64,000 bases of DNA from Hyaloraphidium curvatum (Eukaryota; Monoblepharomycota; Hyaloraphidiomycetes; Hyaloraphidiales; Hyaloraphidiaceae), in contig JAIVFI010000006.1 of assembly GCA_025558095.1 (NCBI GenBank), positions 744,001 through 808,000 on the forward strand. Direction: 5' to 3'. The notes under the pieces are model-generated. The model was not told the origin of the DNA. It worked only from the letters and a program-made list of their open reading frames with translations, and ran no database searches. Every line of letters starts with the position of its first letter. Within the stretch, counting starts at the first letter, position 1. Position numbers and translations under genes: made by a program. Shown here piece after piece: positions 20,340 to 39,005 of this stretch.

Positions 20340-20904
20340 CGCGGAACCGACTACGACCCGCCCACCCGTCTCAGAACCGGCGTGCCTCCCAGCCACGGAT
20401 AGGAGCCGAGCGGCTCGGCACGGTGTGCCCCCAAAAGTACGTGCCAGCCGCTGGCCCCTCAGCACGGTAGAAGCCACGGTTCATCCCGACGCGGAATCCC
20501 CGTAGCTCCTTCCACGAACCCAGGGAACCTTGGCGGTGGCCCAGGCGACTTTCCCTCCTCCACCTTTTCGAACGACACGGCATTCTTGCTTTCGCTCCCC
20601 GTTGTTTACATTGGCCGCACCGTCACCCTGCGACCCTTTCGACCTTACGACAACCACGGCAGCCGCCTTCGCCGCTGATGTTATAGGTACGCAACGCAAT
20701 CGGTCGGCTTTATGTCCCGGTCTGCTCGTAGCCCGGCCTCCGCCGGTGTTCGCGGATCTCGGTCTCTCTCTCGCCTCCTGCGCCCGGATGTCCATCCCCA
20801 GTCACCAGGTCGGCCTCCTGCGCCCGGATGTCCATCCCCAGTCACCAGGTCGTTCGACGTCAGGTCTTATCCGCACCCGCGGCTTCTCGGTGTGGAAGTG
20901 GCCA
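20340..20904. other. Intergenic region, 565 bp
   Basis: Promoter of the SM gene at its left end and 3' flank of the seven-helix gene at its right end (both genes minus strand). It contains the 40-base tandem duplication listed separately. No conserved frame. Confidence 0.5.
20773..20852 (+). repeat. Exact tandem duplication of a 40-bp unit
   Basis: The unit beginning gcctcctgcgcccggatgtc occupies 20773-20812 and is repeated without change at 20813-20852. It lies about 50 bases beyond the stop of the seven-helix gene, so probably in its 3' untranslated region. Perfect identity means it is recent. Confidence 0.9.
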
Positions 20905-22589
20905 TCAACGGCCCGGACAAAAGCTCTCCAGCGCCACGTACACGCCGAGCGTCCTCAGCACCGTCCAAATGCCGATCCCCAGGGTCACTGCCGACACCAG
21001 GAAGGTCCTCAGCAGGCCGTACGAGATCGGGAAGCCGAAGAACAGCGCGCGGTAGTCGTCCATCTCCAGGAACGACGAAAGCACCCGGTCGTGCTGGACG
21101 AGCTCGTCCACCGCCTCCGCGGATCCGGGCCCCCCCGGCCGCGCGGCGAGGGCATCCGAAACCAGGACGCGGATCTCCCGCTGCGCGCCGCGGTAGACCG
21201 ACGCGACGGTGGCGAGCTCCTCGTTGAGCGCGGCGAGCCCGACGAGGCTTTCCAGCTCCCAGTTCAGCACGAAGACGATCGTCGCGAGCTGCCATGCGCA
21301 GATGCAGCTTCCGGCGGCCTGCGACGCACGGCGGCGAGGAGATCAGTGAGGTAAGGGACAAAGGAACGGGCAACGACCGACACCCACCATGGTCACAACC
21401 ATACCGACCAAAACTGCAACCGGAACAGTGTAGGTGTACGAGCTGCGCACTATCTTCAGGTTGAGCGAGTTGCGGGACCGCCAGAGACCGCACAGCCTGT
21501 AGTGCAGGCGGACGTAGAGGTACTGGTCGTTCTTGCCGGCGTTGGCCGCGGAAGGCCCGGAATCCCCGGACAGGAGGAGGGCTCGGTACCGTTCCAGGAG
21601 GGAGCGGACGGCGAGCGCGGCGGCGCGATGCTGCAGCCTCTTTTCGACGTCCGCGACGCCGGTGTTGGGGTGCGAGATGAGGGACGTCGCCATGAAGAGA
21701 TACGAGAAGAGCAAGACCGCTGCGATGGTGCAAAGGTCGGTGAGGATCGACCTTCCGAGTGCCGAGGAAACCAACCCAAAAGCGTCAGCAGAAGATATGA
21801 CCACCAGTAGCCGAAAAACTGCGAACCAAAGGTACGGAAAGTCGTGATTGGTATCAGGACGCTGTAGCACCACACGAACGCCGCGTTGCTCGCGACGACG
21901 ACGAGCCCGTGCCACGCCGTGTTCCTGGGCGTCCGTCCGGCGCAGGAAGCTTCCGGGCACGGGCACAGCTCGTCGCCCTCCTTGTGTAGAACGAGCTGTG
22001 ACCGTGGCTTGGACCCCGGGGCCTGTTCCTCGCGCCCGCGGGCGACCAGTTGCAGCCAGCGCGCGAGAGGAGCGAGGCCCGACGCGTCCAGGGAGACCTC
22101 GGGGTTTTCCGCCCTGACGTAACTGGGCAGCCTGCTCAGCGCAACGAAGTAGTACGCGCTCAAGCTCAGAACGAAAAGAACGGCCGCTGCGAACCCCGTG
22201 GCGAGCTGCGCGCCCCCGAACCTCCCGTCGTTGAACCGGAACGCCAGTCCCATGATCGCCAAGGCAACGGCAGCGTAGATGATGTTGAAAGCGAGATGGA
22301 GGGGAATCGGGGCCACCAGCTTCAAACCCGCCACCGCGGTCGCGTGGAGCGCGCCATGGCCGCGGAAGGACGCGAGCATCGAGTCGATCGTCAGCGGCCG
22401 CGCGACGCGCAGCTCCGCCGCGGGATCGGCGGAACGCCACTCGTGGCGGTCGGATTCGGCGTCCGCAAAGGTGTCCAGCGGTGGCAGGGCCGGCGGAAAG
22501 AGGGTGAGCCACTCCGCCGGTTCGAAGTCGAACGGCTCCTCAGCGCCCGCGGGCGGATGCGGCGCGTCGGGCAGCTCGATCATCGTCAA
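20905..22589 (-). CDS. Seven-helix membrane protein, family copy A
   Basis: Three exons, 22589-21776, 21719-21388 and 21318-20905, give 519 aa. The N-terminus carries the family motif FDFEPAEWLTLFPPALPPLDTF. Predicted helices lie near residues 93-117, 128-151, 228-250, 258-284, 364-382, 386-410 and 479-505. A cysteine cluster CPCPEASC lies just before helix 3, and a long polar loop with YLYVRLHYRL lies between helices 4 and 5. The C-terminus is VLRTLGVYVALESFC. Paralogues are at 30.6, 34.6 and 37.8 kb. The intron between helices 5 and 6 is at the same place in copies A, B and C. Topology recalls gustatory-receptor-like proteins, but no known signature is certain. Function unknown. Confidence 0.75.
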
Positions 22590-22970
22590 GTGGGGCGTGT
22601 CTGGGAGTTTGGGACGCGCACGGCGGGACGGCGGGACGACACCTGATGGAGAGCGTGTACCCCGGGAGAGTAGAATTGATCGAGCGCGCAGTCATCTTCG
22701 CGTGTCCGACCCGATTCAGCTTCTCTCTCACGCTGATGTCATGGACGTGGATGGTTTAGGATGATCAGAGGTGGAGGACGATCCGTACTACGCTGCAGAT
22801 GGACCGACTATACAGAGCCCGTTACACTCAGGGCCCGTTGCGCTCATGACCTACATAAGCTCATGATCTACCTGACGACACATCAGATCCCAAAGCCAGC
22901 GCGTCCAAAGCCAGCGCGTCCCAGAGCCAGCACGTTTGAACTTCGCATCAGGCCGATCATTCAAAACTCC
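22590..22970. other. Intergenic region, 381 bp
   Basis: Promoter of copy A and the 3' flank of the intradiol dioxygenase gene. It contains small direct repeats (see 22891-22935) and a near-duplicate gctcatgacct / gctcatgatct pair around 22835-22870. No gene seen. Confidence 0.5.
22891..22935 (+). repeat. Three tandem 15-bp units
   Basis: caaagccagcgcgtc occurs twice in succession, followed by a third degenerate unit (ccagagccagcacgt). It is about 35 bases downstream of the dioxygenase stop. Confidence 0.8.
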
Positions 22971-24069
22971 TCACTTGCGGTCGATGGGAAAGTCAAAAGG
23001 CACCACCCATCTCGTGACGGGCAGCCCCTCCACCTCGGCCTCCCTCCCCTTGCCTCCGGCCAGGAACTCGTCCCTCAGCACCGGATGCGCGAGCTGCTCC
23101 GGCGCCACCTGCGGCCCGGCCTTGTTCCCGTGCGCCACGTCCTTTTCCAGCTGCGCGTCAAACTCGCCCGCCGCCAGCCGGTCGGGGAAGTAGATCTGCG
23201 TGCACAGGGTCCTGTAGCCGGGCGCCGAGACGTAGAAGTGCAGGTGGGGCGGGCGGACGGCGTCCGGGTACGAGGCGCCGGTGAGCTTGCAGTAGGCCGT
23301 GAGGAGGATGCCGGGGACGAAGCCGAGGAGGCCGTTGAAGACGTAGAACGCGGCGGCGGAGTACATGCCGATGCTGACGGGGTACAGCGTGCCGATGGCG
23401 TAGCGCCCCGTGGTGGGGTCCGCGGAGTAGACGCCGCGGAAGTCGTAGTCGAGGTCGAGGTCGCCGTACTTGGGGACGCGGCCGCGGGGATCCGCCGCCC
23501 ACGCGCGGAGGGTCGCGTTCGGAACGGGTTTGCCGGTGGCGCGGTCGACGACGCGGCCGAACATCGCGAGGGTGTCCTTGGAGTCGCTCTTGTCTTCGGC
23601 GCTGCGGTGCGACGCGAGGGAGGCAAAGTCGGCGCCGGAGTAGAGGGCGTTGACGACGGTGTCGAGGGGCGCGCTTATAGTGGGGCCGAAGAGCGAGGCA
23701 AGGAAGCCCCTGTGGCCGCTCTTGCGCCGGTCGTAGAGCCAGAACTTGCGCTGGGGAGGCGAGAGCACGTACTCGGGTCCGTCCTGCGATGGAAGGATCA
23801 GAGATGAGCAAAGGTCGGTCCTGCTATGCTCCGCCACGCACCGCATCCTCGAGCGGGTTCGACTGGTCGTAGCCCAGCAACTTGCCGATGAAGGTGCCGC
23901 GGAGCAGGGTGTCCCCGACGAGCGCACCCGGCCAGTAGAACAATCCGCTTGCGACGAGGGCCCCGAGCGCGAACGGCGCCGAGACCCGGGGCGCGACCTC
24001 GTTTTCGAGCTCCGACGCGGAAGCGGCGCCGTTGGCGGTTGCGGGAGCCGTCGTCTTGGTGGCGGACAT
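22971..24069 (-). CDS. Intradiol ring-cleavage dioxygenase-like protein with N-terminal hydrophobic segment
   Basis: Two exons, 24069-23842 and 23783-22971, give 346 aa. The C-terminal half shows the intradiol beta-sandwich pattern: MFGRVVDRATGKPVPNATLR, a DLDYDFRGVYSADPTTGRY strand pair, and RPPHLHFYVSAPGY followed by TLCTQIYFPD. The HxH histidines are the iron ligands of this family, and tyrosines precede them. Such enzymes cleave catechol-type rings between the hydroxyls. Residues 33-52 (FALGALVASGLFYWPGALVG) are hydrophobic and could be a membrane anchor, unusual for soluble family members. The gene shares an 87-base divergent promoter with the HCCA-isomerase-like gene. Confidence 0.8.
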
Positions 24070-24156
24070 GTTCTCTGGTGGCTTGAGGATGCTTTCGTGG
24101 GTGCAGTCAAGGGTTTGTCTCCTTTACGACAATTGAATTGTCACCCACGGGCAACA
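24070..24156. promoter_or_regulatory. Compact divergent promoter of two aromatic-catabolism genes
   Basis: Only 87 bases separate the start codons of the intradiol dioxygenase (minus) and the HCCA-isomerase/GST-kappa protein (plus). Both families act on aromatic compounds, so shared control is a reasonable inference. A GACAATTGAATTGTC-like inverted repeat (24128-24142) sits in the middle and could be a dimeric factor site. Confidence 0.5.
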
Positions 24157-25139
24157 ATGGCATTCCGCTACGAACCGGTCCCGCAGCGGCTGCAGCGGCC
24201 CCACCTGCGGCTGTACCTCGACACCGCGTCGCCTTTCTCGTATCTGGCCGCGGTCGTCATGCTCCGGCTCCGCGACGACCCCGCGTCCCCCTGGCGCGGC
24301 AAGGCCGACTTTGAATTCGTCCCGATCTCGCTCCCGGAAGTCCGCAAGCGCGCCGACAACTGGCCCGGCCCGCCGGCCATCAGGAGTGGGTTCCCGCCCG
24401 CGGCCGGAGAAACCGGCCGTTGGTTTACCCTGCGGCCCCATCCTCCCTGACCCCCGGCGCGCAGAAAAGGCACGTTACCTTGCCCTGGACATGGTCCGCG
24501 ACCGCCGGACGTACCGCGTCCCGCTGGTCCCCAACCCTGCCGCGTTCCCCGCGCGGACCGAGGAGAACCTGCTACTGCTCACGCACATCAAGGTCAAGTA
24601 CGGCGAGAAGGCCTCAGAGACCGCGACGATGGCGCTGTTCGAGGCGTACTGGGTGAAGGACCAGGATCCGGCAAAGGACGCGGTGATGGAGGAGTGCGCG
24701 GGCAAGGCGGTGCCCGGGGGGCCGGCCAAGGTCCGGGAGATCCTGAAGGCGATCAGGAAGGACGGCAAGCAGGAGAAAGAGTGGCTTGAGAAGTGGGTGC
24801 CGTCACCATTAAGCTCTTTCCGGGCCGGTTGCTGACTGTCCTGCCTCCTCAGATGGACGACCGAGTGCGCCGACTCGGGCGCCTTCGGTGCCCCCTGGTT
24901 CAAGGGCTTCGCCGCGCGTCCGGACGGATCCACGGAGGAGCAAGTGTTTTTCGGGTGGGTACCTATGGCTTCCCGCCCTTCGCGCAAGCTGACCGAGCCC
25001 CTTCCGAACCAGCTCGGACCGCTTCGAGCACATCGCCGACTTCTTCGGGCTCCCCTGGAAGGGCTACATCACGTCCCCCGAGAGCACGCCCGTGCCGCCG
25101 CCGCTGCAATGGCCCCCGCCGCGGAAACCGAAGCTCTGA
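24157..25139 (+). CDS. 2-hydroxychromene-2-carboxylate isomerase / GST-kappa (DsbA-fold) protein
   Basis: Four exons, 24157-24385, 24465-24792, 24853-24954 and 25013-25139, give 261 aa. Marks of the family are LRLYLDTASPFSYLAAVVML at the start (the catalytic Ser of SPFSY replaces the DsbA cysteine), KARYLALDM, and ADSGAFGAPWF near residue 195, the conserved substrate/glutathione loop, followed by DRFEHIADFFG at the C-terminus. Members isomerise hydroxychromene carboxylate in naphthalene degradation or act as kappa-class GSTs; sequence alone does not choose. The spliced frame restores each motif exactly, which supports the introns. The divergent dioxygenase partner favours an aromatic-degradation role. 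Confidence 0.85.
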
Positions 25140-25716
25140 TGCCAGGGCCAAAAGCCTCTGTCGTTGCACCAAAGTGACGCCGCCAGTTGGGATGGGGGGG
25201 GAAGAGGGGGAAAAAGGAAAGAAAGCGTCGAACCCGTTTCACTTCGCCTCGAGAAAATGGGTCCGAAGCAACCTGCCACGGCCGACTGGTCGAAGTTCGA
25301 CTCTCCGGTCTCTTTGCGCGCTGCGCGACGGCCTCCTCGCCGCCTTCTGCGGACACCTCGCAACGTGGCTTCCGCTATTCGAACGACCGTTGCCGCCGGC
25401 GTTGATGCTTCCAACCGTCATTCATTTCCCGCGAGCGAAACTGAAGAGGCCGAGCACCTGCTGTACGCTGATGAGGCCGCTTCTGGAAGGATGCAGCTGG
25501 AGAGGGTGCAGAATCCCTTTGGACCTCCATGCCCCTTGCTGGCGGTCGGAAACCACCGGCGCGCCGGTGAAGTGGCTTGCGGGGCCAGCGGACGCATCTC
25601 GAGGCGCACATCGTCGTCCGGGCGGGCGTTGGCGGGCTCCCGACGCGTGCCGTTGGGGCCCCGCCTTTGTCTCCCCGGTTTCCTCCGACCCCCGGCGGAC
25701 GCCTTGCTGGCAGACG
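25140..25716. other. Intergenic region, 577 bp
   Basis: Between the isomerase stop and the coiled-coil protein start, both plus strand. Long open frames overlap here in several frames because of GC bias; none shows a domain. Probably promoter and 5' leader, though a further upstream exon of the coiled-coil gene cannot be excluded. Confidence 0.45.
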
Positions 25717-28700
25717 ATGGAGGGGGAAAACGGTGCCGGCAGCGCGTCGCCGACGGCGCCCGCGGAAGACGAGGGCATCGCCTCCCTCCTGTACAAGAAC
25801 AGGCTCAGTGCCCACTCGCTGAAGCCCGGCGCGCCCGTGGTGTTCGCTCACGCCAACTCCCCGCGCAACAAGCCCGGCTGGATGACCACCCTGGACACGA
25901 TGAAAGAAAAAGAGATCAGCAACTTGAACAGGGACAGCCTGTTGTCGGTTTGGAGCAGGAGCGAGGGCACCTTTGTGCTGTACGTGCCGCCACCGACGAG
26001 CGCGTTCGCAGGGAGCTCATTCAAGCGTCCGCAGCTCCCGCACGGCCATTTCGCCCGACTCAGGAAGCGGCAGGAAGGTCTTGCCGCGAGTGCCTCCCCG
26101 CGGCCCGCGCCTGGTACCCCCGACCTCCTCCCCGCCGCTGGCTTCGAGCCCGAGCCCGCCTTCCGAGGGCCCGCTTGCGCAAGGCGGTTCTTCTCCCCTT
26201 GGCCACCGATCCGCTGCTTTGCGGTCTTTCGATGCATCGGAAAGCGAAGGGGAAGAGGACGGGCGGGACGGAGCCCAACAGGGCCTTTCGCCTTCAGGGG
26301 TGGAAGAAGTGGTCGAGTGGGACGGCACGCCCGCCGCCGAAGATGCCGCGGGAGCACCGGACGGAGGTGCCCGGGAAGAATCCGCCTCGCCATCCGTCGA
26401 GGAGGCGTTCGAGGACGCCGAGGACGCGCCCCAGGAGCCCGCCGGCCATCCACCCGTGGAGCACCTCGAGGGCCGGGACGTCGGATCCTTTCCGACGGAC
26501 GGCCGGCTGCTCGAACTGAGCAAGTCCGAAGCGCAGTTCCTCCAAGACCTGCATCAGGTGCGGGAGGAGATCGACGAGGTACTGAATCAGAGCGAACCCG
26601 GAGTTCCCGGACGCCGGCAAGTGCCCGCGGGACCCTCGGAAAGCGACGGACAGCACCCGGCCCCCACGATGCCGGCCGGGTCCGGGAACGCGGAGCACTT
26701 GGAGCCTGCGCAGCCCGCCGGCAGGGAGCACCCGGGTCCCGCTGCGCTTTCCCGGCCCGAGATCTCCCCCCGTTATACCGTGCGCGAGATCAGCCGCCTC
26801 GCCGCCGGCCTCGAGTCCGAACTGGAAGCTCTGGAGGAAGAGAACGGCCGGCTCCGCGCGAGGGAGGCGGAGCGGGACCGCGAGGCGGCCAGAATTCAAG
26901 AGGAGGCGAGGGCGGAAACGGAGGGCCTGCGGAAGCGGATCGCGGAGCTGGAGGCCGAGGCGACGCAGGCGCAGCGCGCGGCCGAGGCAGAGAGGCAGAC
27001 GGCGACCGGGCTCAGGGAGGGAGCCGGGCGCGCCGAGAAGCTGGCGTCGGAGCTGGACTCCGAGCGCGCGAAGCAGGTCGAGCTCACTGGCAAGGTCGCG
27101 CAGATGGAGGAGCAGCTCGAAAGGGCTGCGTCGGCGGTGGCGGAGGCACAAGGGGAGCGCGATCGGGCGGCGGCGCAGCTCCAGTCGGAGCGTTCCGGGC
27201 GTGCCAAACTCGAGGACAGGGTCGTGGAGCTCGAGTCGGAGCTGGAGAAGGCCAGGTCGGCGGCATCCACGGCGCAGAAGGACCGCGATCGGGCTGCGAG
27301 AGAGCTCCGCCAGGCCGCCGATGCCAAGGACGAGGCTGAGCAGAAGCTTGCGCAAGCCGAGGAGGCGGCATCCACGGCGCAGAAGGACTACGACCGGGCG
27401 TTGACGCAGCTCCGCCAGGCGGTCGAGGCCGTGGAGAGCAGGCTGGCTAAAGAAACGAAGGAGCGGACACGCGTCGAGGCGGTCAAGAGGAACGCGCAAC
27501 AGGAACTCAGGAAGACCAGGAGCGAGCTGAAGGATTCCGAGGAAAACGTCAGGCAGCTCATCCGCAAGAGGGAGGAAGCCGCCAAGGTCGGCGACACGAC
27601 GCCGGAAGCCGAGGAGCAACACGACGGTTCGGGTCGAGCGGCAACTTCGGAATCAAGTTCCCTCGCGCAAGCGGCCTCGTCGTCCTCGGCGGATCCGCCT
27701 GCCGTACCGGCGACTCCGACGTCAAGCGGGCGCGCAAGCCCGGCTTCGGCGACATGCGCCTCCCTCCCTCCTGCCCTCTCCGGCTCCAGCACATCCGCCG
27801 GCAACCTTTCCCTCCCCACCCCCACGACCACCCCCGTCCGCACTGCCTCTGAACTGCTGAATCCGAAGGAGCTGGTGCGCGCGGACGTCAAGCATGCCTG
27901 GAATGTCTGCAAGAAACGTCACGCACAAACCGACCGCGCCCGTTCCGAATCAGTGTCGTCGTTGGGCACTGCGCGGCCGCAGAGGGACACGGTCACGGAA
28001 GTGGATTTCGACGCGCTTGGCAGGCGCTTCAACGCAAAATGGTGAGACTTCCCGAGGTCAGCGTGTCACGGCTTGTCACGACGGAATCTCCACAGGCGCC
28101 AGCTATCCCGGGTGCAGATCGCACGCAGGGACGCCGTCGGCTTCCTCCGCTTCGCCAGGGAGGAGCTCGGGTTCCAGCCCTGGCCGGAGGATCCCCCGGA
28201 GCCGTACGTCGAGCCGAAGCCCGACGACGTGGAGGGAGCGGAGAGCGACGCCGAGGGGAATGACGCCGGTGGAGACGGAGGAAACGGCGAGGACCGGAAC
28301 CCGGGCGCGGAGGGCGACGACGAGAGGGAGGTCGGCGGCGGAGACGGGAGCAACGTCGAGGAGCGGAAAAATGGCGGGGAGGGCGACGACGAGAAGGAGG
28401 ACCGCGGCGAGAACGAGGAGCGGAGAAAGGACAAGGGCAAGGGCAAGCCGGAGCGACGAAGCCGGGAGCTAGAGTCGGATGAGGAGAAGACGAGGAAAAG
28501 GGCCAAGACCGAGAGCTCCGCGAGCCCGCCGCGGCGGCCGAAGAGCGCGGTGGCCAAGACGTCTTCATCGGCTGGATCAGGGCAAGGAGTTGCTTCTCCG
28601 TTGGGAGAGCAGGCCGAACAAGGGGTGCTGGGCAAGGCTGCAGACGATGCAGATGACCACGGGGCGGCGGCTTCGAATCCTGAGGTCGTCGTGATCAGCA

Positions 28701-28723
28701 GTGACTCTGATGAATCCGAGTAG
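25717..28723 (+). CDS. Large coiled-coil protein, acidic C-terminus, function unknown
   Basis: Read as three exons, 25717-25947, 26012-28041 and 28096-28723, 962 aa. The last junction is firm: it restores an uninterrupted frame through a 54-base intron. The first junction is less sure because its donor is GTTTGG. Residues 80-290 are Ser/Pro/Glu-rich and disordered. About residues 330-610 form a long coiled coil of heptads (ISRLAAGLESELEALEEENG onward, with repeated AASTAQKDRDRA/AASTAQKDYDRA units). The tail alternates acidic runs with basic KGKGKPERRS and TRKRAK, the latter a possible nuclear signal, and ends VVVISSDSDESE. No motor or enzymatic domain is seen. It may be a structural or scaffold protein. 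Confidence 0.65.
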
Positions 28724-28954
28724 TTGATCTTTTGGATTGTTGCTTTTCATTCTGATGGAATCTTCCCTTGATCTGTGCGCGGAATGATCTTAAGGGGGGC
28801 GTGAGGCTGCGGCCGCGCTGCGCCCTTTCCAGAGCGTCCCGAGTCACCCACGATTTGTCCTTCAAACGCGCCTGGGCACTTTCTCGTCCACCTTGGCACC
28901 CTTCCACTGACATTTCCGTACATTCCGCGGCGAAATTCGGCAGACCGGCTCGCG

Positions 28955-30529
28955 ATGGCTGCTGCTTCGGAGGACGCTTCTGCGTCCCTTCCAGAGGATC
29001 CCCACCGGCGCTCCCTCGACAAGACGCTCCCGAACAACGATTCCGTCTCTCTCCCGCCTAAAACGGACGCTCAGTATTCCCCGGCGCCGGACCTGGAGCG
29101 CGGAGTGCCCGATGCCGAGGGCGAGAGCGCTCTGGTCCGCAGGCTCGACCTTCGGATCATTCCCTGGATCGGGCTCTGCTACCTCTTCGCCTATCTGGAC
29201 CGGTCCAACATTGGCAACGCCGTGATTGCGGAGGGCGACATGCTGGGATCCCTCGGGATAGCTCCGGGCTCTCCCGAGTACTCCCTCGCCCTGTCAATCT
29301 TCTTCGTGGGGTACCTCCTCTTCGAAATCCCCTCCAATATCCTGCTCAAGTGGGCGACCCCGTCCAAGTGGATCGCGAGGATCATGGTGACTTGGGGCAT
29401 TGTGGCGGCGTGCACGGCCGCAGTAACCAACGCCGCCGGGCTCATCGCCGTCCGCTTCTTCCTCGGCGTCGCCGAGGCGGGGTTCTTTCCCGGCGTCATC
29501 TACTTCTTCGCCTTCTGGTACCGGCAGGACGAGCAGGCGAGGCGGATCTCGTGGTTCTTTGGCGCAGTCTCGCTCGCCGGCGCCTTTTCGGGCCTGCTTG
29601 CCTCGGCAATTGGCTTCCTCCACGGCGTCGGGGGCCTAGACGCCTGGCAGTACCTGTTCATCATCGAAGGTGTGCCATCCGTGATCCTCGGCATCCTGAC
29701 GATCTGGATGCTGCCCGATTTCCCTGGCACGGGCGCTAAGTGGTTCGGCCGCGAGTGGCTAACTCCCGAGGAAGACGCGCTTGCGGCGTCGAGGATGGCG
29801 GAGCATGCGCCCAAGGCTTCGGACCCGGCATTCGACTGGATCGAGTTTAAGGAGCTGTTTTCGAACCCGAGCCGGGCACGGACGGCATCGACATACCTCT
29901 TGCCGCTGATCTACTTTGCCTTCGCCTGCGGCAACTATTCGATCAGCTTCTACCTCCCCACGGTCGTATTGAGCTTGGGGTCGTTCCAAACCTGGCAAGC
30001 CCAGCTTCTGACGGTGCCGCCTTACATCGTCGGCTTCTTTGCCGCCATCTCTGCCTCGTGGTTCTCCGACCGCTGGGCAAAGGTACACGGAGACGAGCCC
30101 ACCTTCAAGGCCTCGCGAGCCTGGCAACTCGGCCTTGCATTCACGCTGACTCTCATCGGTGTCTCGGTCTGGGCCGCCGGCGTTTCTGGCTGGGCCGGCT
30201 ACGCCGCCGCCTTCCCCCTCCTTGCCGGCAACCAGGCGGCGGTGCCCATTTTCTGGGCCTACGGGGCGCAGCACTTTTTCCGCGGGGCCACGGGCCATTC
30301 GGTGGGCATCGCCTGGGTGAATAGCGTCGGGAACCTGGGCGGATTCGCCGCGCCGTACTTCTTTTTCGGGACGGGCCAGGAACGCCTCACGAGGGGTTTC
30401 ATGATCAACGCCTGCGTCCTATCGGTAGGGATCGCGCTGCTGGCGCTGCTGGAAGCAATCAGGCTGTCGGAGGCGCAGCGGACTTTGCGGACGACCGTGT
30501 CGGCGGATGAAGAGCCGAGCAAGGTGTAA
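28955..30529 (+). CDS. MFS transporter, allantoate permease (Dal5/ACS) family
   Basis: Single exon, 524 aa, a normal length. After a polar 65-residue N-terminus come twelve expected helices. The first cytosolic-side motif LFAYLDRSNIGNAVIAEGDM matches the anion:cation symporter branch of the major facilitator superfamily (Dal5, Tna1, Seo1 and relatives), as do RFFLGVAEAGFFPGVIYF and FWYRQDEQARRISWF. These plasma-membrane proteins import organic anions such as allantoate, nicotinate or vitamins with protons. The substrate cannot be read from sequence. It sits 88 bases upstream of seven-helix copy B on the same strand. Confidence 0.9.
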   Translation: MAAASEDASASLPEDPHRRSLDKTLPNNDSVSLPPKTDAQYSPAPDLERGVPDAEGESALVRRLDLRIIPWIGLCYLFAYLDRSNIGNAVIAEGDMLGSLGIAPGSPEYSLALSIFFVGYLLFEIPSNILLKWATPSKWIARIMVTWGIVAACTAAVTNAAGLIAVRFFLGVAEAGFFPGVIYFFAFWYRQDEQARRISWFFGAVSLAGAFSGLLASAIGFLHGVGGLDAWQYLFIIEGVPSVILGILTIWMLPDFPGTGAKWFGREWLTPEEDALAASRMAEHAPKASDPAFDWIEFKELFSNPSRARTASTYLLPLIYFAFACGNYSISFYLPTVVLSLGSFQTWQAQLLTVPPYIVGFFAAISASWFSDRWAKVHGDEPTFKASRAWQLGLAFTLTLIGVSVWAAGVSGWAGYAAAFPLLAGNQAAVPIFWAYGAQHFFRGATGHSVGIAWVNSVGNLGGFAAPYFFFGTGQERLTRGFMINACVLSVGIALLALLEAIRLSEAQRTLRTTVSADEEPSKV

Positions 30530-30617
30530 AGACGAGGGGAGCCAATCCTCGAGGCTGACGGGCAAATCCCTCATCGTCGTCGTCAATCGCGTGCCCCCCG
30601 CGTCCTCTCAAACCGCA

Positions 30618-32185
30618 ATGGCCGAAGTGCGCCGCGTCGAGGCCACCGATTTCACGCCCGCGGAGTGGACGGCCTTGTTTCCGGCGCCCTCCGCTCCCGT
30701 GGACACGTTCGGAGGCGAGGACGGCGCTGAGGATCCCGCCGCGGCTGGGCGCGCCGCGGACCCGTTCACGAAGGAGGCCCAGGCCAAGGAATTCGATTCC
30801 CAGCCTCTGAAGGGACTTGCCTGGCTCGGAGAACATCTCGCGGCGTCTGCGTCGGGTTGGAGCCGTTGGAGCGCTTTCATCTGCTGGGCTTCACTGTTTG
30901 CTCCCTCAACCGTTCTCCTCGCCGTCGCGGCGTCCTGGAACAACGGCCAGTACTCCACCGGGAGCGTGGCCGTGGGATTTGCGGGCATCTGCGCCAATTA
31001 CGTGACGACTCTCTCAATTATGGTGCTCGTTGCCAAGATGCTGCCGAACGGTGTGCCGCCCGACTTTTGGACCACCGCCGGTCTCTTCCGCTGGCTCAGG
31101 CTCGTGCGCGCGCCGGGTGCTGATTCGGGCAAAGGCGAGACACCGGCACGCCTGGTGGAGCACGTGGCCGGCGACCCCGTGTGCACCTGCGCAACCTGCG
31201 GCCGACACGCTCAGACTGCTGCGGGATGGCTGGCCCTCATCGATATGCTTACCAACTATTTCCTTGCTTTGGCCATCTTTTTCTTCGCCGTGTATACCCC
31301 TGTTGTGACCCACGGGCCCCGCTTGGGCTCCACCTCCTGGGGCATCACACTACTCACCCTTTACGGTCAGTCCTGCGAGCTCGCAAGCAGAGAAACAACA
31401 AGATGACGACCTCCTTCTCTAGCGATTGCTTTGTTCGCCAATATTCTCGCGTGGACGGACAGGTACAAGCTCACGAGCAACATCGCCTACAGCGGGCTCG
31501 AGCGGCGCCTCCAAACACGAGCCGTGGCGCTGTCCATGCGGGACCTTCTTCTACCTTTCCGCGACTCTTTAGCCAACGGCGCTCTCCCGCCGCGGCTCGA
31601 AGGGGGAGAATGGCTCTACGTTCGCCTTCATTACAGATTCGTCTCCCTTTGCCGCTCCAGGGACCGGCAAGACCAGAGCCTGCTGAGCAGGCTGTACGCC
31701 CTCATCCAGGTGCCGCTCTTGGTCTTGTGCGCTCTTCTCATGGCGGTGGGCTGCCTCGCCTGCTGACACAAACCCAGCTGATCGCCCGATCCGACCAGGC
31801 CGTCGGCCGTTGCCTAAACGTCTGGATCATCGTGTACTTTGCGCATGTGGTTGCCTGGTTCACCACCAACGCCGTCAACCTGGCCGCACGGAACTCGCTC
31901 CTGGATGCCGTCGACGGCCTGTACCGCGATGCTCAGCGCGAGTTGCGAACGCTGATGCTCCGTGCCCGCCCGGGACCGCTCGCGGACGAGGTCGCGCTGC
32001 ATGTTTCCGCTTTGGAGGGCTTTGTCGCGGCCACCGCAGGGCGGGCGCGGCTTTTCGGGTTCGTGGTCTCGTACGGGACGGTGCGGACGATGCTGGTCAC
32101 CATCGTGACTGTCGCGGTGGCACTCTGGAGCGTGTTGAGAGGGCTGGGCGTCACGCTGACCCCGGAGAGCTTCTGCCCGGCGTAG
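30618..32185 (+). CDS. Seven-helix membrane protein, family copy B
   Basis: Three exons, 30618-31365, 31423-31745 and 31799-32185, give 485 aa. It starts MAEVRRVEATDFTPAEW, then ALFPAPSAPVDTF, the family N-terminal motif. Hydrophobic helices include AFICWASLFAPSTVLLAVAA, GFAGICANYVTTLSIMVLVA, LALAIFFFAVYTPVV, LLTLYAIALFANILAW, LIQVPLLVLCALLMA, the segment from NVWIIVYFAHVVAWF, and VRTMLVTIVTVAVALWSVL. The cysteine cluster is CTCATC. The last intron is read as 53 bases, not 32, because that acceptor yields AVGRCLNVW, which aligns with AAGSCICAW of copy A. The C-terminus is LGVTLTPESFCPA. A nearly identical but broken copy lies at 37.8-39.0 kb. Confidence 0.78.
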
Positions 32186-32343
32186 CTCTATTGTAGAGAG
32201 CACTTGATATCGTCGTAAATCGTCAATGCTGCAGTGTTCGGTTCATTGTCTGCCCTTCCCCTAGTTCAGTGCAACGTCCCGCTTCAGACTGACATATTGG
32301 AGCCAATCTGAGCGAAGCAGGGATTCGCTGAGTTCGCAATCAG

Positions 32344-32808
32344 TCAGAGGTCGCGGCACATGAGCACATGTCCGGTCGAGTCGTCCCCAAGACCGGCAGC
32401 CTCCACAGGCGCGTCGCGGCCGGTGACTACGAAGCCAATACGCGTGTGGAACGCGACGGAGGCCTCGTTAACTGTTGAAGTAACGCATCGCACGCGTCGT
32501 ACCCCGCGTGCGCGCACCAGGTCCGCGAAAGCGTCGTGTAGCCGCCTGCCCAGCCCTTGGCCCCGCAGCCGCGGGTCCACGCCGACCATGTGAACGTACG
32601 CCTCGTCCGGGTGGTCCTGCGACACGAAGCCGATGAGGAAGCCGGCGAGCTCGTCATCGGCCTCGGCCACGAGCGACGTCCCGGCAAAGTGTTCCAGGAA
32701 CAGAGACGGCACGAGAGCGCGCAGGTCGCGGCCACCCCACCACGCGGGCATTGCCGCGAGGATGCGCGCGTGGTCGGAAAGGCGCGCGCCTCGCAGCTCG
32801 ACCGCCAT
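32344..32808 (-). CDS. GNAT-family N-acetyltransferase
   Basis: Single exon, 154 aa, the usual size of a stand-alone GNAT. The acetyl-CoA pyrophosphate-binding motif A is clear: YVHMVGVDPRLRGQGLGRRL (R-x-x-G-x-G pattern), preceded by a LVAEADDELAGFLIGF beta strand and followed by VRCVTSTVNEASVAFHTRIGF, the motif B region. The family transfers acetyl groups from acetyl-CoA to amines of small molecules or proteins; the acceptor is unknown. It converges with copy B, with stops about 160 bases apart. Confidence 0.88.
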   Translation of the reverse strand: MAVELRGARLSDHARILAAMPAWWGGRDLRALVPSLFLEHFAGTSLVAEADDELAGFLIGFVSQDHPDEAYVHMVGVDPRLRGQGLGRRLHDAFADLVRARGVRRVRCVTSTVNEASVAFHTRIGFVVTGRDAPVEAAGLGDDSTGHVLMCRDL

Positions 32809-33014
32809 TCCTTGTTATGAGCCGTGAGGGGGCCAACGATGAAAACTCCGGACCCGCACCCGGGAAAAAGCCGCTGCTCGCACATGCTGCTATCAGTCCT
32901 GTCCTAGATGACGAAGGACCCAAGAAACAATCACCGTGGGATTGACCGGGCGTTCGGTATTTCCTTCTCCATCGTCTTGGCGATCTCGTAATCTCGTGCA
33001 GCCGCGCGAGGGCG

Positions 33015-33246
33015 TTGGGCTGCTTCAAGGAGTGCTGCTGCCACATCGGCAGGTTGAAAAAGGACATGTTCGGCGGGGACATAACCACGTGGCGGAACTC
33101 TTCTGCTTTCAATCCTGGTGCCCCGCCCCGCGCCAGTGACGAAGGAGAGCTTCAAGCGGTGCGCGAGATGCAAGCTGGCCCAGTACTGCTCGCTCCAGTG
33201 CCAGAAGATGCACTAGCCCATGAATCGCTCGGGATGCAGCACGGCT
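33015..33246 (+). pseudogene. Decayed MYND zinc-finger gene fragment
   Basis: Reading across frames gives GCFKECCCHIGRLKKDM (compare ECFKKVLRQLRTRL of the fragment at 42.2 kb), then LFCFQSWC, then after a frame change ESFKRCARCKLAQYCSLQCQ, a recognisable MYND finger. A TAG replaces the expected tryptophan codon directly after QKMH, and the end (PMNRSGC) still aligns with the PxHRxxC tail. It lacks a start codon and has at least one frameshift and one stop. It lies between copy B/GNAT and the RapZ-like gene. Confidence 0.75.
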
Positions 33247-33558
33247 GACCCGAGCTTGGCGTCGACGCCGCGTTGACAGAAGGACGAGTCGGAGGCGCCT
33301 TAGGGCGGGATGTGCTGTTCGGGGCGACAAGACGGGCAGGACGGTTGGAAGCCCATCCAGCGCGCCACGAGTCTCTGTAGACATGAGAGAACATTGAAGT
33401 TGATAATCAAGCTTCGACACGGGCGGAAGTCGGCACCGCCGGAAGTTCCGGAACTCCCCGAAGCGTCGCAAGGGAACGGCCGACGCGCGCCGACCGCCTT
33501 TCGTTGCCTTCCTCGGAGCCCAGCGCGGCTCCTTCCGCTCCGAATTGAGGGGCGTCCG
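33247..33558. other. Intergenic region, 312 bp
   Basis: Between the MYND remnant and the RapZ-domain gene. An in-frame extension of the latter is open through here but looks non-conserved. Presumed promoter. Confidence 0.5.
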
Positions 33559-34422
33559 ATGGCGTCCGAATCGCCCCAGCCGGGCCCCCCGCCCGAGCTC
33601 CCGCCGGAGCTCACCCTCCTCACGTTCGGCCACCACTTCCCCCCGTACCCGGCCTGCGCGCGCGTCTTCTCCGTGCGCGCGTTCAAGTCCCCCAAGGGCG
33701 CGCTCAAGGGCAAGAACGGCCTCGCGCGGGAGCTGCAGGACGCGCTGCTGGCGGTGCCCGGGGCGCGGGAGCGGATGGCCGAGATCTGCGGGTTCGCGGA
33801 GCGCGCGGCGAGGGATCCCCGGGGGGCGGTGCCGGCCCCGGATGGGTCGGTGTCGAACGACGAGATGTCGGCGGCGAATTCGGACGCGGACCCCGAGAGC
33901 GAGGTCGAGCCGGGGAGGTCGCCGACGCCGCCCTCGGGGACGGCCACCCCGGCGCCGGAGGAATCCCCGCTGCCGCCGGGGCCCGTGGTCGGGATCATGT
34001 GCGACCACGGGCGGCATCGCAGCGTGGCGATGGCGGAGTTGTGCAGGGCGGAGCTGGAGAGGAGGGGGGTCAGGGTGCACGTGCGGCACAGGGACCTGGG
34101 GAGGGGGAAGACGGCAAAGGAGAGGGAAAAGACGGAACGGAGGCTGGCCAGGGAACGGGAGGAAGCGGAGGGGAGGGGGGAGGGAGGGGTCGTGGACGGG
34201 CTCGAGGCCGAGGCGGACCGGATCGCGGTGGCGGAGGTGGCGGACGGGCAGGCCCCGCCCGACGCTCCGCCCAACGCGGCCAACGCAGCCAACGCGGCCA
34301 AGCCGCCTCTTGCCGACGATTTGGAGGGATTGGCGTCGCCTACGCCGACGGACGCCCGCCCCAACGAGCACCACGAGCAACGGCAGAATGGGAGTGCCGG
34401 TGCCCCCGGGAACGGACCTTGA
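33559..34422 (+). CDS. RapZ C-terminal-domain-like protein
   Basis: Single exon, 287 aa from the ATG at 33559, chosen because the domain begins soon after (LTLLTFGHHFPPYP). Two conserved blocks match the C-terminal RNA-binding half of bacterial RapZ and its stand-alone eukaryotic relatives: LLTFGHHFPPYPACARVFSV with VRAFKSP, and VVGIMCDHGRHRSVAMAELC. They are separated by about 60 residues of Ser/Pro/Glu-rich linker that bacterial RapZ lacks. The tail is a charged helix (KTAKEREKTERRLAREREE) and an NAANAANAAK repeat. The ATP-binding kinase-like half is absent. In bacteria the domain binds small RNAs or kinase partners; the fungal role is unknown. Confidence 0.75.
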   Translation: MASESPQPGPPPELPPELTLLTFGHHFPPYPACARVFSVRAFKSPKGALKGKNGLARELQDALLAVPGARERMAEICGFAERAARDPRGAVPAPDGSVSNDEMSAANSDADPESEVEPGRSPTPPSGTATPAPEESPLPPGPVVGIMCDHGRHRSVAMAELCRAELERRGVRVHVRHRDLGRGKTAKEREKTERRLAREREEAEGRGEGGVVDGLEAEADRIAVAEVADGQAPPDAPPNAANAANAAKPPLADDLEGLASPTPTDARPNEHHEQRQNGSAGAPGNGP

Positions 34423-34601
34423 AAATGTACGTCACCAGGAATTGGAGATCGGAGTGGCCGGCTGTAACCGGTCGAGAACCCAATTCGCTGGACAAGCCGG
34501 ATCAGCTACTTGCTGACCGCGGGGTCCTTGGGACCGAAGCTTCACTCGACACACCAGCACCTTCCCAGAAGCACGTCTCCCGCCCCGCATCTCGATCCGC
34601 A

Positions 34602-36181
34602 ATGACCGCCGCCGCCGACTTCTCGCCCGAGGAATGGCTCGCGATCGTCCCCGCGGCGCTCCAGCCTCCGCCGCCGATCCCCGGCCCGCTCAAGGCGCCC
34701 GCCGACCCGGCGGCCGCCGCCCGCGCCGAGCGGCCCCTCACGGGGCCGGCGATGCTATCCGCCGTCCGCTCCTTGAGCGCGGGCCTCGCGGCGTGGCTCG
34801 ACGCGCAGTTTGTCCTCGCGCCGTTCAACGCCCGCGTGGGCCTGCGCTACGGGGCCGCCGCGGTCTTCGGGCTCGCGCTGTGCCCCGCGTTCGTCGTGCT
34901 GAACGACGGCCGCTTCCCCCCGCGGGCGCTGGGCTGGGGCATCGCGGCGTACTGCCTGCTCATCTTGCTGTCGCACGGGGCCGTCATGCGGGCCGCCTGG
35001 AGGTCGACCGTGTTTGGCAACGCAAAGGCGGGGAGCGCCCCCGCCGATCCGGACCTCGGGGCCCACGCCTTCGCCCCGCTGGCACGCTGGAAGCAGCTGC
35101 TTGACTCGGAGGGTCTCGCACCCGGAGCAGCCGACAGTGACGTGGAGCTCGGCGGGCGTGGAACACCGTGCCCTGCACGAAGATCGCGCCTCGTCGCCCA
35201 CCGCGACGGCGACCCGCTCTGCCCGTGCCCCCTCCCCTCGTGCGCCGGCAACCTCGCCCGCGCCGCCGCATGGTCGCGCACGGCCGAGATCGGCGTCCGC
35301 TACCTGTTCAGCGTCGGCGGCCAGGCCATGGCGGCCTACACCCTCGCCGCCACCTTCGCCCCGCGCTTCTGGACCTCCTGGTTCTGGGCCCTGCTGGGCG
35401 CCCTGTACTTTGCGGGCGTGGTGTGGGCCACGATGCTCGGCGGGCTGGGGAGGGTCTCGGCGTCGTTCCCGGCGATGGGGCTCGTGGAGAGGCTGCACGT
35501 CCGGGCCACGTCGATCGCGCTCGGGTCGCTCCTCGACCGCCTGGAAGCCCAGCTGGCGGGCGATGTTCCTGCAGGGGCTGGGGAAGGGGAAGCGGGCGCG
35601 CGCAAGGGGGAGGAGGAGCTCTACGTGCGCCTCCATCTCGTCCTCTCGACCGTCTGGCAGAAGCGCATCCCGGGGCTCTGGACGGGCAACGCCGCCACCT
35701 TGTCCATGTTTGCCGCCGTCGCCCTCATCTGCATCTTTTTCAACATCGTGGGTTTGCTCGCCGCCACCACAACGCGGGCCTCTGACTCCCCCCACAGATC
35801 GGAGGGCTCTGCATCCCCGCCTACGCCCTCTCCATCTCCGCCTTTGTCCTCTCCATCTTCCTCCTCGACCTCTCGGGCATCGCCGCCGGCAACTCCCAGA
35901 TCCGCTCCGTCTCCGCCCTCTACTCCTCCGCGCAGCAATCCCTCCGCCGCCTGGCCCTCCTGCACCCATCCCACCCCCTGCTCCCCGCGCTGGACCGGCA
36001 CGACCGGATGCTCGGCTCGTTCACGGACGCGCGGGCGTACGAGATGCGGTTCTGGGGGTTCGCGGTCGGGTACGGCACCGTGAGGACGATCGCGGCGACG
36101 GTGCTGACGGTCGGGTTCGGGCTGTGGAGCGTGGCGAGGGGCAGCGGGGTGTACGTGACCCCCGAGACGGTGTGCTACTGA
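34602..36181 (+). CDS. Seven-helix membrane protein, family copy C
   Basis: Two exons, 34602-35747 and 35798-36181, give 509 aa. The N-terminal motif is present but diverged (DFSPEEWLAIVPAALQPPPP). Helices include YGAAAVFGLALCPAFVVL, GWGIAAYCLLILLSHGAVM, WFWALLGALYFAGVVWATML, FAAVALICIFFNIV joined to IGGLCIPAYALSISAFVLSI, and VRTIAATVLTVGFGLWSVA. The cysteine cluster CPCPLPSC matches copy A. The loop before helix 5 has ELYVRLHLVLSTVWQ, aligning with LYVRLHYR of A and B. The single intron falls between helices 5 and 6 like the last intron of A and B; the first intron is absent, so it was lost here or gained in the others. Confidence 0.75.
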
Positions 36182-36293
36182 GGCGGGGCTGCCGTTGCCA
36201 AGCTGATTGCTGACGTGGCTGCTTCCACCGTCTGTACCGCATTCAGGAGGGTTGGGCAGGAACTGGACAGGCAGGAGGCATGATCTGCGCGGG

Positions 36294-36384
36294 TTCAAGG
36301 GGTGCTCGCGCTGCAAGCTCGCGTTTTGCTGCTCGCGCAAAGGACTGGAAGGAGCACTGCGTGATGTGCAAGCTGGACGGATGA
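36294..36384 (+). pseudogene. MYND finger remnant
   Basis: FKGCSRCKLAFCCSR followed, after a small deletion and frame change, by KDWKEHCVMCKLDG and a stop. The CxxC and CC-x spacing and the W-x-x-H-C end identify a degenerate MYND finger. No start codon and no upstream domain are visible. It lies about 110 bases beyond the stop of seven-helix copy C, on the same strand. Confidence 0.6.
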
Positions 36385-37018
36385 CGTGCTCAAGAGGGGT
36401 TTCGTGGCGGTGACGTGGTCGATGATGTGGCCCGGCGCGGACCAGGACGGTAGAGCAGAGCGACAGGTGGACGTGATGAAGTTTACTACATGGGAAGTAG
36501 GACCGAGTCTGGTTCACTGATTCCAGGTCGCGCGGCGAATTGCTCTGATTCCAGGTTGGCTGGCTGCCGGCTTCAGGGGTCGCTCCCCCCGCCGCTACTT
36601 CCCTTGCTAGCAAAATGGGTAGTGAGATCCCCTGCGGGGGGCTTCCGGGCCGGTGGTGGCCGGACCCCGGGTGGAGCGCGCGCCCCTCACGCGCTGCACC
36701 CCTCGGCGCCCTCAACCGCAGCCACGGTCGACGGCGACGGACATGAGAATGGCGGACATGAAGGGGGACGGCGGCGGCAACACGGCTGAGGGGTGGGAGG
36801 GCGGGCGGCATGCCGGGACCGCGGTACCTTCTCACGCCCGGCGCTCCCCGCGACAGGTTCGACGCGCAGGAGGCATTTGCCGACAAGGAGCGCGAGGAGG
36901 ACACGTACGACGATCTGCCTATGTCTAAATCCCAGTCCGACGTCATTTTGTCTTCACTCCCGGAGTAATCTCTCATCGTCGATTGGGTGCGTGCAGTTCC
37001 GGAATGTGGTCGCGCCGA
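36385..37018. other. Intergenic region, 634 bp
   Basis: Contains only the short open frame at 36810-36968 listed separately. The rest shows no gene, repeat or RNA. Confidence 0.5.
36810..36968 (+). CDS. Possible small protein or terminal exon, 52 aa
   Basis: An ATG-to-TAA frame reads MPGPRYLLTPGAPRDRFDAQ then charged residues (DKEREEDTYDDL) and ends SDVILSSLPE. The composition is protein-like, with an acidic stretch, but no family is recognised. It could equally be chance or the last exon of an unrecognised gene. Confidence 0.2.
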   Translation: MPGPRYLLTPGAPRDRFDAQEAFADKEREEDTYDDLPMSKSQSDVILSSLPE

Positions 37019-37631
37019 TCAGGTCGAATCCGCGTCCAGCTGCCTGCACAACTTGCTGTGCTGCGGCCAATGCAGACGCTGGCATTCCTTCGAGCAGTAA
37101 TGAGGGAGTTTGCACGCCGAGCACCGCTTGAAGTTGTCTTTTGCCGTTCCCGGGAGCAGACGACGCTGTCGCTCTTCTCGCCCGCCAGCTTTTTGTCCTT
37201 GCCGATCTGTCGCAATTGACGGAGTGCTCTTTCGAAACAATCGGCACCGGCGCCGGAGCATGAGAGCACCGTCGTCTTCTTGAAGCCGAGCTCGGCGCGG
37301 AATGGTCCCTCCATGTGGCACGCCGATCTCACGCAATGCGAGGTGTCCATGGCTTCCAAGCCGCAACGCAGTCCGCAACCAAAGCATCGTTGGCTTGCGC
37401 TCTGTCCATTGGTCCTCCCACGCGCGCCCTGCAGTGTCCAACACAGAGGCAGCCCGTTGGATCCGCGGCAAGAGCGTCCTTGTTCACCGCAAAAAGAGCG
37501 TCCCTGATTTCCGGGCCCTGGTTCGCCCCCTCGAACAGCACGAGACGGTACGCGGTGAGCGCCTCTTTCCGACCAACGCGCCCATTGGAGGCGATGGGTC
37601 CGCGCACGCGTGGCTTGGCGGCGCCCAGCAT
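37019..37631 (-). pseudogene. Broken relative of the MYND gene at 42.8 kb
   Basis: The start region AKPRVRGPIASNGRVGRKE aligns with EKPRVRGSITSNARVGRKE of the intact gene at 42788-43438, and RDALFAVNKDAL aligns with LDATFAVNRAAV. The reading then has to change frame to give CFGCGLRCG (intact: CFSCGTRFG) with ADCFERALRQLRQIGK, and change again to give DNFKRCSACKLPHYCSKECQ and the finger end HWPQHSKLC. Three frames are needed and no splice signals explain the shifts, so I call it a pseudogene. The terminal finger itself is undamaged. It lies about 200 bases from the end of the broken seven-helix copy D. Confidence 0.72.
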
Positions 37632-37829
37632 GACATGCAGAGCCTCGCCCGTTTGGAGGTGGGTTTCGTGCAGGCGGCGGGGTCTGAAAAGGGCAGGAGT
37701 TTGCGGACGGATTGGGACCGCGGGACCGTGGTTTCGAATCATCAGGCCCGCTGTTGGCTTGACACCGCAAAGCTGAGGCCAAAAAAAACGAGATTCATCG
37801 ACGACGGCTTACGCAACTCGATGATAGAG

Positions 37830-39005
37830 CTACGCCGGGCAGAAGCTCTGGGGAGTCAGCGTGACGCCCAACCCCCTCAGCACGCTCCACAGCGCCACGG
37901 CGACCGTCACGATGGTGACCAGCATCGTCCGCACCGTCCCATACGAGACCACGAACCCAAACAAGCGAGCCCTACCCGCTGTGGCCGCGACGAACCCCTC
38001 CAGAGCGGATACATGCAGCACGATCTCGTCCGCGAGCGGTCCGGGGCCGGCACGGAGCATGAGCAACCGCAGCTCGCGCTGCGCGTCGCGGTACAGGCCA
38101 TCGACGGTAACGAGGAGCAAGTTCCGCGCGGCGAGGTTGACGGCGTTGATGGTGAACCAGAGGACCACGTGCCCGAGGTATAGGATACCCCAGACGTTGA
38201 GGCACCATCCGATGGCCTGTTCGCGGGCGTCAATCAGATGGGCTCTCGACCAAGAAAATATAACCCACCGCCATGAGCAAAGCGCACAAAACTAGAAGCG
38301 GGGCCTGGATAAGGCCGTACAACCTGCTCAACAAGCTCTGGTCTTGGAGGTCTCTCGAGCGGCAGAGGGCGACGAACCTGTAATGGAGTCGAACGTAGAG
38401 CCATTCTCCCCTTTCCAAGACGCGGTGCTGGAAGGCCGGTGGCCAAGGATTCGCGGAAAGTCGACAGGAGATCCCGCACTGACAGGCCTGCAGCACGAGT
38501 GTGAAGGCGCCGCTCGAGTCTGCGGTAGGCGAGGTTGTTGACAAGCTTGTACCTGTTTGTCCATTCGAGAAGATTGGCGCACAAAGCAATTGCTGAAGAA
38601 AGTTACCTCATTGTCCGTTCTCCCGTTGCAAGCACGCTGGACCAAACGTAAAGGGTGAGAAGTGCAATGCCCCAGGAGGTGGACGACCGGGGTCTGGACG
38701 GCAAAAAACAAGATTGCATCAGAGAACCCAAGATTAATGACCACATCAATGAGGCCAAGCCATCCCGCGGAAAGCTGAATGCTTCGCCCGCAGGAAGCAC
38801 AGGTGCACCCGCGGTCGCCGGCCACGTGCTCCACTAGCCGCGCCGGAATTCCTCCTTTGGGCGAATCCGTTCCCGGCGCTCGCACGAGCCGAAGCCAGCG
38901 AAAGAGACCAGCGAACGTGTCCACGGGGGCAGAGGGCGCCGGAAACAGGGCCGTCCACTCCGCCGGCGTGAAATCGGTGGCCTCGACGCGTCGCACTTCG
39001 GCCAT
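37830..39005 (-). pseudogene. Seven-helix family copy D, pseudogene nearly identical to copy B
   Basis: The first 31 residues (from MAEVRRVEATDFTPAEW to VDTF) are identical to copy B. The sequence then jumps from VDTF straight to AGLFRWLRLVRAPG, an in-frame loss of about 122 codons that removes helices 1 and 2. A first frameshift lies between FAVQTP and STSWGIALLTLY (near 38690), and the first splice donor is altered. A second shift, a one-base gain, lies before GEWLYVRLHYR (near 38420). The last exon is open and its final 60 residues match copy B except for one change (TPQSFC for TPESFC). The match extends a few bases past the stop. Confidence 0.82.

Follow-up and report, generated by a model that had tools for sequence, protein, structure and literature searches.

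A very large, unnamed family of predicted seven-helix membrane proteins in the fungus Hyaloraphidium curvatum, with a possible likeness to OR/GR-type channels

Introduction

Proteins related to the insect OR/GR/Orco channels (7TMICs) have been described outside insects as gustatory-receptor-like (GRL). They are recognized by an intracellular N-terminus, seven transmembrane helices (TMs), a length of about 350–500 amino acids and inner loops longer than outer ones, together with similarity either to known members of the group or, alternatively, to no other family (Benton et al., 2020, PMC7746228). In the literature searched, OR/GR-like genes of fungi amount to a single gene in either of two Spizellomyces species (PMC7746228), and a structure screen reports no such proteins in the fungi surveyed (PMC9998090). 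Here we describe a gene family of the fungus Hyaloraphidium curvatum, represented by three intact genes (c1, c2, c3) and a decayed copy (c4) in a stretch of 64,000 nucleotides (the window, C6:744001-808000 of a 55-contig, 31.9 Mb assembly), and consider whether it may belong with these channels.

A large, dispersed and divergent gene family

The original prediction, made from the letters of the window, was of a family in four copies, one of them a pseudogene. Within the window this stands: c1, c2 and c3 splice cleanly in models whose GT..AG introns were chosen to restore frame and homology, and c4 is a broken relative of c2. The three intact proteins share 31-33% pairwise identity over 361-527 aligned positions (BLASTP, E 4e-35 to 3e-65), so that chance likeness is out of the question. 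As a measure of the family's extent, four falls far short: at least 202 distinct family places were found, on 45 of the 55 contigs.

Seven sequences, namely c1, c2 and five paralogs, were searched against the genome; each search scored the best 82-88 of 693-756 candidates, and merging the matches gave these places. The count did not plateau: 81 of the 202 places were matched by a single query and 32 by two, and new places were still coming in with the last two queries (23 and 16), so that the true family size is probably above 202. The figure refers to places rather than intact genes, some being partial or containing stops; six span fewer than 700 bases, each of two neighboring pairs may be one gene split in two, and two joined places (on C39 and C6) contain two genes each. 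Equal scores and identities recur across two pairs of contigs (C30:60691-62182 and C48:16240-17731; C17:638628-639272 and C47:84097-84741), which may be duplicated or haplotypic contigs of the assembly. If the genome has some ten thousand genes, about 200 would be roughly one in fifty.

The places are mostly dispersed, with some clustering: a neighbor lies within 5 kb for 42 of 194, compared with a mean of 19 and a maximum of 37 in 500 random simulations. Among the 160 on contigs of known length, 74 are within 100 kb of a contig end (46 expected) and 34 within 50 kb (23 expected); there is no excess within 25 kb (10, with 12 expected).

For comparison of members, 78 mutually overlapping loci were fetched, chosen by many-query matches or best scores. 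They yielded 54 different matches with an open frame, a few genes being represented by more than one piece, and 39 single open frames that extend from close to the beginning of the profile through to its end. These 39 form the alignment A3, in which L056 (730 amino acids, with a frame that extends upstream) was swapped for L033, the same gene cut later; the start methionine is undefined for L033, L058 and L076. Adding c1, c2 and c3 gives the set of 42 sequences to which the residue counts below refer.

Identity among the 39 members has a median of 30% and a range of 23-66%, from which it follows that most of the duplications are old. Nonsynonymous divergence (dN) is below synonymous divergence (dS) in 12 of 13 pairs by Nei-Gojobori count over the last exon, clearly so in c1/L002 (0.18/1.03), c1/L004 (0.24/0.90) and c2/L006 (0.28/0.88); in several distant pairs the ratio is near 1, and in c1/L007 (0.60/0.53) it exceeds 1. 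With at least 202 places, such low identity and dN below dS in nearly all pairs, the family has the look of a receptor repertoire.

Predicted topology and invariant residues

Hydropathy averaged over A3 peaks at positions 82-96, 110-127, 223-243, 254-272, 358-398 and 473-498 (numbering of L027). The seven hydrophobic helices of the original prediction are recovered in it, with TM5 and TM6 merged in one 41-residue double peak (358-398) that was divided by eye at a conserved G-S-C turn. The parts on the side of the N-terminus are long (means over the 42 sequences of 83 residues for the N-terminal part, 86.7 for loop 2-3, 77.0 for loop 4-5 and 72.8 for loop 6-7), and those on the opposite side short (8.4, 8.3 and 4.0 for loops 1-2, 3-4 and 5-6, and 15.0 for the C-terminal tail).

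Membrane-near lysines and arginines average 13.9 on the N-terminal side (105 flank positions) versus 1.8 on the other (34 positions), with the same sign in all 42 sequences when basic residue 495 is left in the helix. This residue, Arg or Lys in every sequence, stands at the outer end of TM7; if it is assigned to the outside, the sign is retained in 42 of 42 by count and in 39 of 42 by density (0.135 versus 0.082). Taken per residue, loop 1-2 by itself matches the inner parts in basic character. The positive-inside rule predicts an N-terminus inside the cell and a C-terminal tail outside it.

Eleven residues are invariant in the 42 sequences: R159, H193, C200, C202, C207, C379, N406, G468, R477, T485 and C506. 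H193, C200, C202 and C207 are grouped (the HC3 cluster) in the predicted inner loop between TM2 and TM3, frequently in the form LLxHDxxDPLCPCPxxSCAG, with a shorter last gap in c2, L018 and L064. C379, in the TM5-TM6 turn, and C506, in the C-terminal tail, are both on the predicted outer side. The only invariant residues within assigned helices are R477 and T485, both in TM7, which is by far the most conserved helix (mean entropy 1.40 bits, versus 2.48-2.81 for TM1-6). Its polar moment is one-sided (97 of 2000 shuffles were as large), those of TM1, 2, 4, 5 and 6 being unremarkable (261-1180 of 2000). The TM7 stripe consists of T478 (33 of 42), T482 (35), T485 (42), G489 (31) and S/T492 (39), at steps of 4, 3, 4 and 3.

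Searches for known relatives

That the family was undescribed, as had been proposed, is borne out by the searches made. Pfam gave no match for the three window proteins (best E 0.086), for any of the 39 paralogs (0.04) or for the consensus and two of its parts (0.098); a known transporter or enzyme family, which would have counted against the proposal, was likewise not matched there. A profile search of the PDB returned nothing with three members and nothing real with 39 (best E 0.082). With the single query L031, none of 71 pattern matches in bacterial and archaeal genomes and none of three in viral contigs was confirmed. The widest 7TMIC survey is reportedly that of Himmel, Moi and Benton 2023 (Curr Biol). 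A large fungal family of this kind was not found in the literature searched, which excludes that survey; a review (PMC11526382) cites it for the wider 7TMIC superfamily.

What the proteins may be

The gene family is thus real, very large and, as far as searched, unnamed. As to what it encodes, a 7TMIC-like chemoreceptor channel ranks first among the explanations, with roughly an even chance of being right. The reading arises from a pattern: variable TM1-6, a constant and partly polar TM7, an N-terminus predicted inside and long inner loops are what ORs and GRs also present, in whose fold TM4-6 and helix 7a make up a cytosolic anchor and helix 7b the pore. The window proteins (485, 509 and 517 amino acids) are at the upper end of the GRL range or slightly over it; hydropathy predicts the seven TMs, charge predicts the N-terminus inside, and the predicted inner loops average 87, 77 and 73 residues versus 8, 8 and 4 for the outer ones. 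Similarity to known GRL, OR, GR or DUF3537 proteins was not found with Pfam or hhalign, and the family instead fits the alternative provision, that of resembling no other family.

The TM7 motif (T/S)Yhhhhh(Q/K/E)(F/L/M) is strictly retained at one of its four positions. The threonine is present in all 42 sequences, Ser or Thr replaces Q/K/E in 39, and the last position is V, I, L or M in 42, with L or M in six; the spacing of Thr485, Ser/Thr492 and V/I/L/M493 matches that of T, Q and F in TYhhhhhQF. The result decides little, because the Spizellomyces GRLs likewise retain one of the four positions (PMC7746228). In the insect receptor BmGr9, helix S7b lines the pore, with T436 forming a hydrophilic ring and Q443 and F444 at the gate (PMC11100771). 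If T485 is set at T436, S/T492 and V/I/L493 would correspond to Q443 and F444.

A possible but more tentative elaboration is that the fungus has built its own insect-sized repertoire, of some 200 or more genes, of OR/GR-type ligand-gated channels equipped with a cytosolic metal knuckle and an outer disulfide. For the channel reading itself we infer a fold, an oligomer, a pore, ligand gating, a metal, a disulfide and a chemosensory role as follows. Subunits would assemble via their long cytosolic helical parts, and a variable pocket for the ligand would be made up of TM1-6. Ligand binding would open a cation pore, lined by the conserved TM7 with its stripe of Thr, Ser and Gly. The His-Cys-Cys-Cys cluster between TM2 and TM3 would be a probable metal knuckle bracing the inner part, and C379-C506 a probable outer disulfide that fastens the end of TM7 to TM6. 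The cluster and the outer cysteine pair seem to be additions particular to this family.

Several results weigh against a relation to 7TMICs. The original prediction of a gustatory-receptor-like resemblance gains support from the charge pattern, the loops and the conserved, partly polar TM7; profile homology was not found. The Pfam models unmatched by the 39 paralogs and by the consensus include those for OR and GR, and the DUF3537 model was matched neither by the three window proteins nor by the 39 members or the consensus, although HMMER filters drop weak matches. In hhalign, A3 gave E-values of 0.3, 0.14 and 0.51 with GR, Orco and joint profiles, and 0.52, 0.57 and 0.65 with the reversed decoys; for C-terminal parts the values were 0.098-0.78 forward and 0.13-0.59 reversed. 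The comparisons covered whole profiles and the C-terminal part in local, relaxed and global modes. Most forward values were below those of the reversed decoys; in one global comparison the decoy had the lower value (0.13, against 0.78 forward). The stretches of the family that aligned with GR and Orco were mostly non-corresponding. The control, GR against Orco, was significant (5e-4 whole, 9e-5 C-terminal part), and since it alone was, the family either lies further from GR and Orco than GR does from Orco, or has no relation to them. The reference profiles are small (three sequences for GR, two for Orco, five jointly), and the null result therefore leaves room for homology. Within the proteins themselves, the TM7 motif lacks its Tyr and Gln (position 486 is aromatic in 0 of 42), the span from the start of TM2 to the end of TM3 exceeds that of BmGr9 by about 50 residues, and by density the charge test fails in three of the 42 sequences. 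The polar moment of TM3 is stronger than that of TM7 (36 of 2000 shuffles), and a polar stripe can equally be a packing face.

These points bear most directly on an alternative that we consider unlikely, if still substantial: a new seven-helix fold with the N-terminus inside, unrelated to 7TMICs, expanded in this lineage into a family of receptors or other membrane proteins, the likeness to GRs being one of convergent topology. The absence of significant GR/Orco homology although the positive control worked, and of any Pfam match, would be expected of such a fold. To our knowledge the invariant HC3 cluster, the outer cysteine pair and Arg477 occur in no 7TMIC member, which also speaks for it. 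What favors a 7TMIC instead is the topology, together with the pattern of loops, the length and the conserved TM7, and retention of only one TM7 motif position is no more than known fungal GRLs manage (PMC7746228).

It is distinctly less probable that the proteins are membrane enzymes or transporters in which the HC3 cluster and invariant Arg and Asn residues are catalytic or bind substrate. A metal enzyme, or a transporter that senses metal, could well have His, Cys, Arg and Asn as invariant residues, but the cluster is in a loop, the two in-helix invariants are confined to TM7, no such Pfam family was matched, and some 200 places at a median identity of 30% would be unusual for a housekeeping enzyme.

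Fungal G protein-coupled receptors (GPCRs) diverged beyond recognition would account for seven helices and a receptor-like family size. GPCRs have the N-terminus outside and the C-terminus inside; the charge pattern here is the reverse (in all 42 sequences by count and in 39 by density), the tail after TM7 has only about 15 residues and no GPCR model of Pfam was matched, so that this reading was set aside as very improbable. Least credible, and also set aside, is the spread of mobile-element or other selfish-DNA proteins through the genome, which would suit the high copy number and the inverted duplicate and decayed copy in the window, but not 39 members about 30% identical with eleven invariant residues, dN below dS in 12 of 13 pairs, or c2/c4 similarity confined to the vicinity of the gene, from two bases before the start codon to 13 bases past the c2 stop.

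Genes of the window

Positions of the family genes and their parts are collected in Table 1. The sequence marks expected of them were found with some amendments: LYVRLH and the C-terminal cysteine are present in c1, c2 and c3, as is the DFxPxEW part of the N-terminal motif, its DTF part occurring only in c1 and c2. The intron expected between helices 5 and 6 is likewise common to all three; c1 and c2 carry a second one.

Table 1. Family genes of the window and their features (positions within the window)
Feature	Position	Strand	Description
c1, intact gene	20905..22583	-	3 exons, 517 amino acids; spliced model and alignment with c2 and c3
c1 intron 1	21720..21775	-	56 nucleotides, phase 1, inside TM4; GT..AG, frame and homology restored
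c1 intron 2	21319..21387	-	69 nucleotides, phase 0, between TM5 and TM6; GT..AG; site and phase as in c2 and c3
c1 HC3 cluster	21942..21986	-	H-x6-C-x-C-x4-C; cytosolic loop TM2-TM3 (predicted side); four residues invariant in 42 of 42
c1 TM7	20953..21015	-	Conserved helix; family-invariant Arg and Thr
c2, intact gene	30618..32185	+	3 exons, 485 amino acids; spliced model
c2 intron 1	31366..31422	+	57 nucleotides, phase 1, inside TM4
c2 intron 2	31746..31798	+	53 nucleotides, phase 0, between TM5 and TM6; acceptor picked via c1/c3 homology
c2 HC3 cluster	31161..31199	+	Shorter spacing, C-x-C-x2-C
c3, intact gene	34602..36181	+	2 exons, 509 amino acids; spliced model
c3 sole intron	35748..35797	+	50 nucleotides, phase 0, between TM5 and TM6
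c3 HC3 cluster	35199..35243	+	
c3 TM7	36077..36139	+	
c4, decayed copy	37830..39005	-	Related to c2, inverted; TM1-TM2 missing; TM3-TM4 frame broken; last exon intact

The decayed copy has six inverted stretches in common with c2, at 73-95% identity. In its TM3-TM4 part the spacing between two arms is shorter than in c2 by a net 23 nucleotides, which breaks the frame; its last exon is 87.5% identical to that of c2 (dN 0.078, dS 0.516). In a FastTree tree of the 42 full-length proteins, c1 and c2 are joined with a local support of 0.967 and c3 is placed away from them, with L040 at a support of 0.45. The cluster is therefore, c2/c4 excepted, not a recent tandem array. An exact 40-nucleotide tandem duplication lies directly downstream of c1, at 20773-20852.

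Beside c3, a frame at 33304-34422 (+) matches the RapZ C-terminal domain (Pfam PapZ_C, E 5e-12), a domain best known from bacteria. Another at 58176-60563 (-) matches Sulf_transp (sulfur transport) above the cut-off, with the next frame (56476-58020) below it; Sulf_transp is mostly bacterial. Two MYND-finger frames are present, at 37019-37483 (-) and 46441-47436 (+), and an inverted 77-nucleotide stretch at 33142-33218, 70% like part of the first, is perhaps a decayed third copy. A 705-amino-acid frame at 25928-28045 (+) has a coiled-coil look and a 98-nucleotide internal direct repeat; it has no Pfam match. Elsewhere in the window, the Pfam cut-off is exceeded by a fungal Zn(2)-Cys(6) cluster and by a BRE4 domain, and a fungal transcription-factor domain falls just below it; there are also genes of Sec1, MFS and intradiol-dioxygenase type. 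The gene content thus points to a fungal genome.

Significance

Little is known of how fungi or their swimming spores detect many small chemicals, and the same is said of chytrid zoospores and diatom hosts (PMC5334607); some 200 receptor-like genes would open a direct test. Should the channel reading be correct, the receptor set of this fungus may be of insect scale and serve to detect many chemicals, large repertoires of chemoreceptor channels would have arisen independently outside animals, and one channel-like scaffold would be at hand in hundreds of natural variants. Even if the fold is new, an orphan family of this size that lacks a Pfam model is a big gap in fungal annotation.

Comparison with known systems

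Of the systems considered, fungal GPCRs share the seven helices and a plausible role in sensing; their charge topology is opposite and, as noted, no Pfam model of theirs was matched. The plant DUF3537 proteins are alike in having seven TMs, an intracellular N-terminus and a TM7 motif that is largely unrecognizable, and differ in forming families of 4-12 in higher plants (PMC7746228). GRL1 of Spizellomyces punctatus and S. palustris, compared by description only, is alike in several respects: it is fungal, has seven TMs, retains one of the four TM7 motif positions (here Thr), and has a 3' intron off the animal site, which we count as a further likeness; it is one gene in each of two species (PMC7746228), as opposed to at least 202 places here.

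From the insect OR/GR/Orco channels the family differs in the lack of significant sequence or profile similarity, in the missing Tyr and Gln of TYhhhhhQF, and in its roughly 50 additional residues between TM2 and TM3, with their invariant HC3 cluster, and its invariant outer cysteine pair. The two are alike in having seven helices, an N-terminus inside and a C-terminus outside as predicted by charge, and lengths near 500 residues; in their large and divergent repertoires; and in long inner and very short outer loops, the printed helix limits of BmGr9 giving about 10, 1 and 5 residues in its three outer turns (PMC11100771). They are also alike in TM7, the most conserved helix of the fungal family, where a polar residue stands seven positions after a threonine and an aliphatic one eight positions after it.

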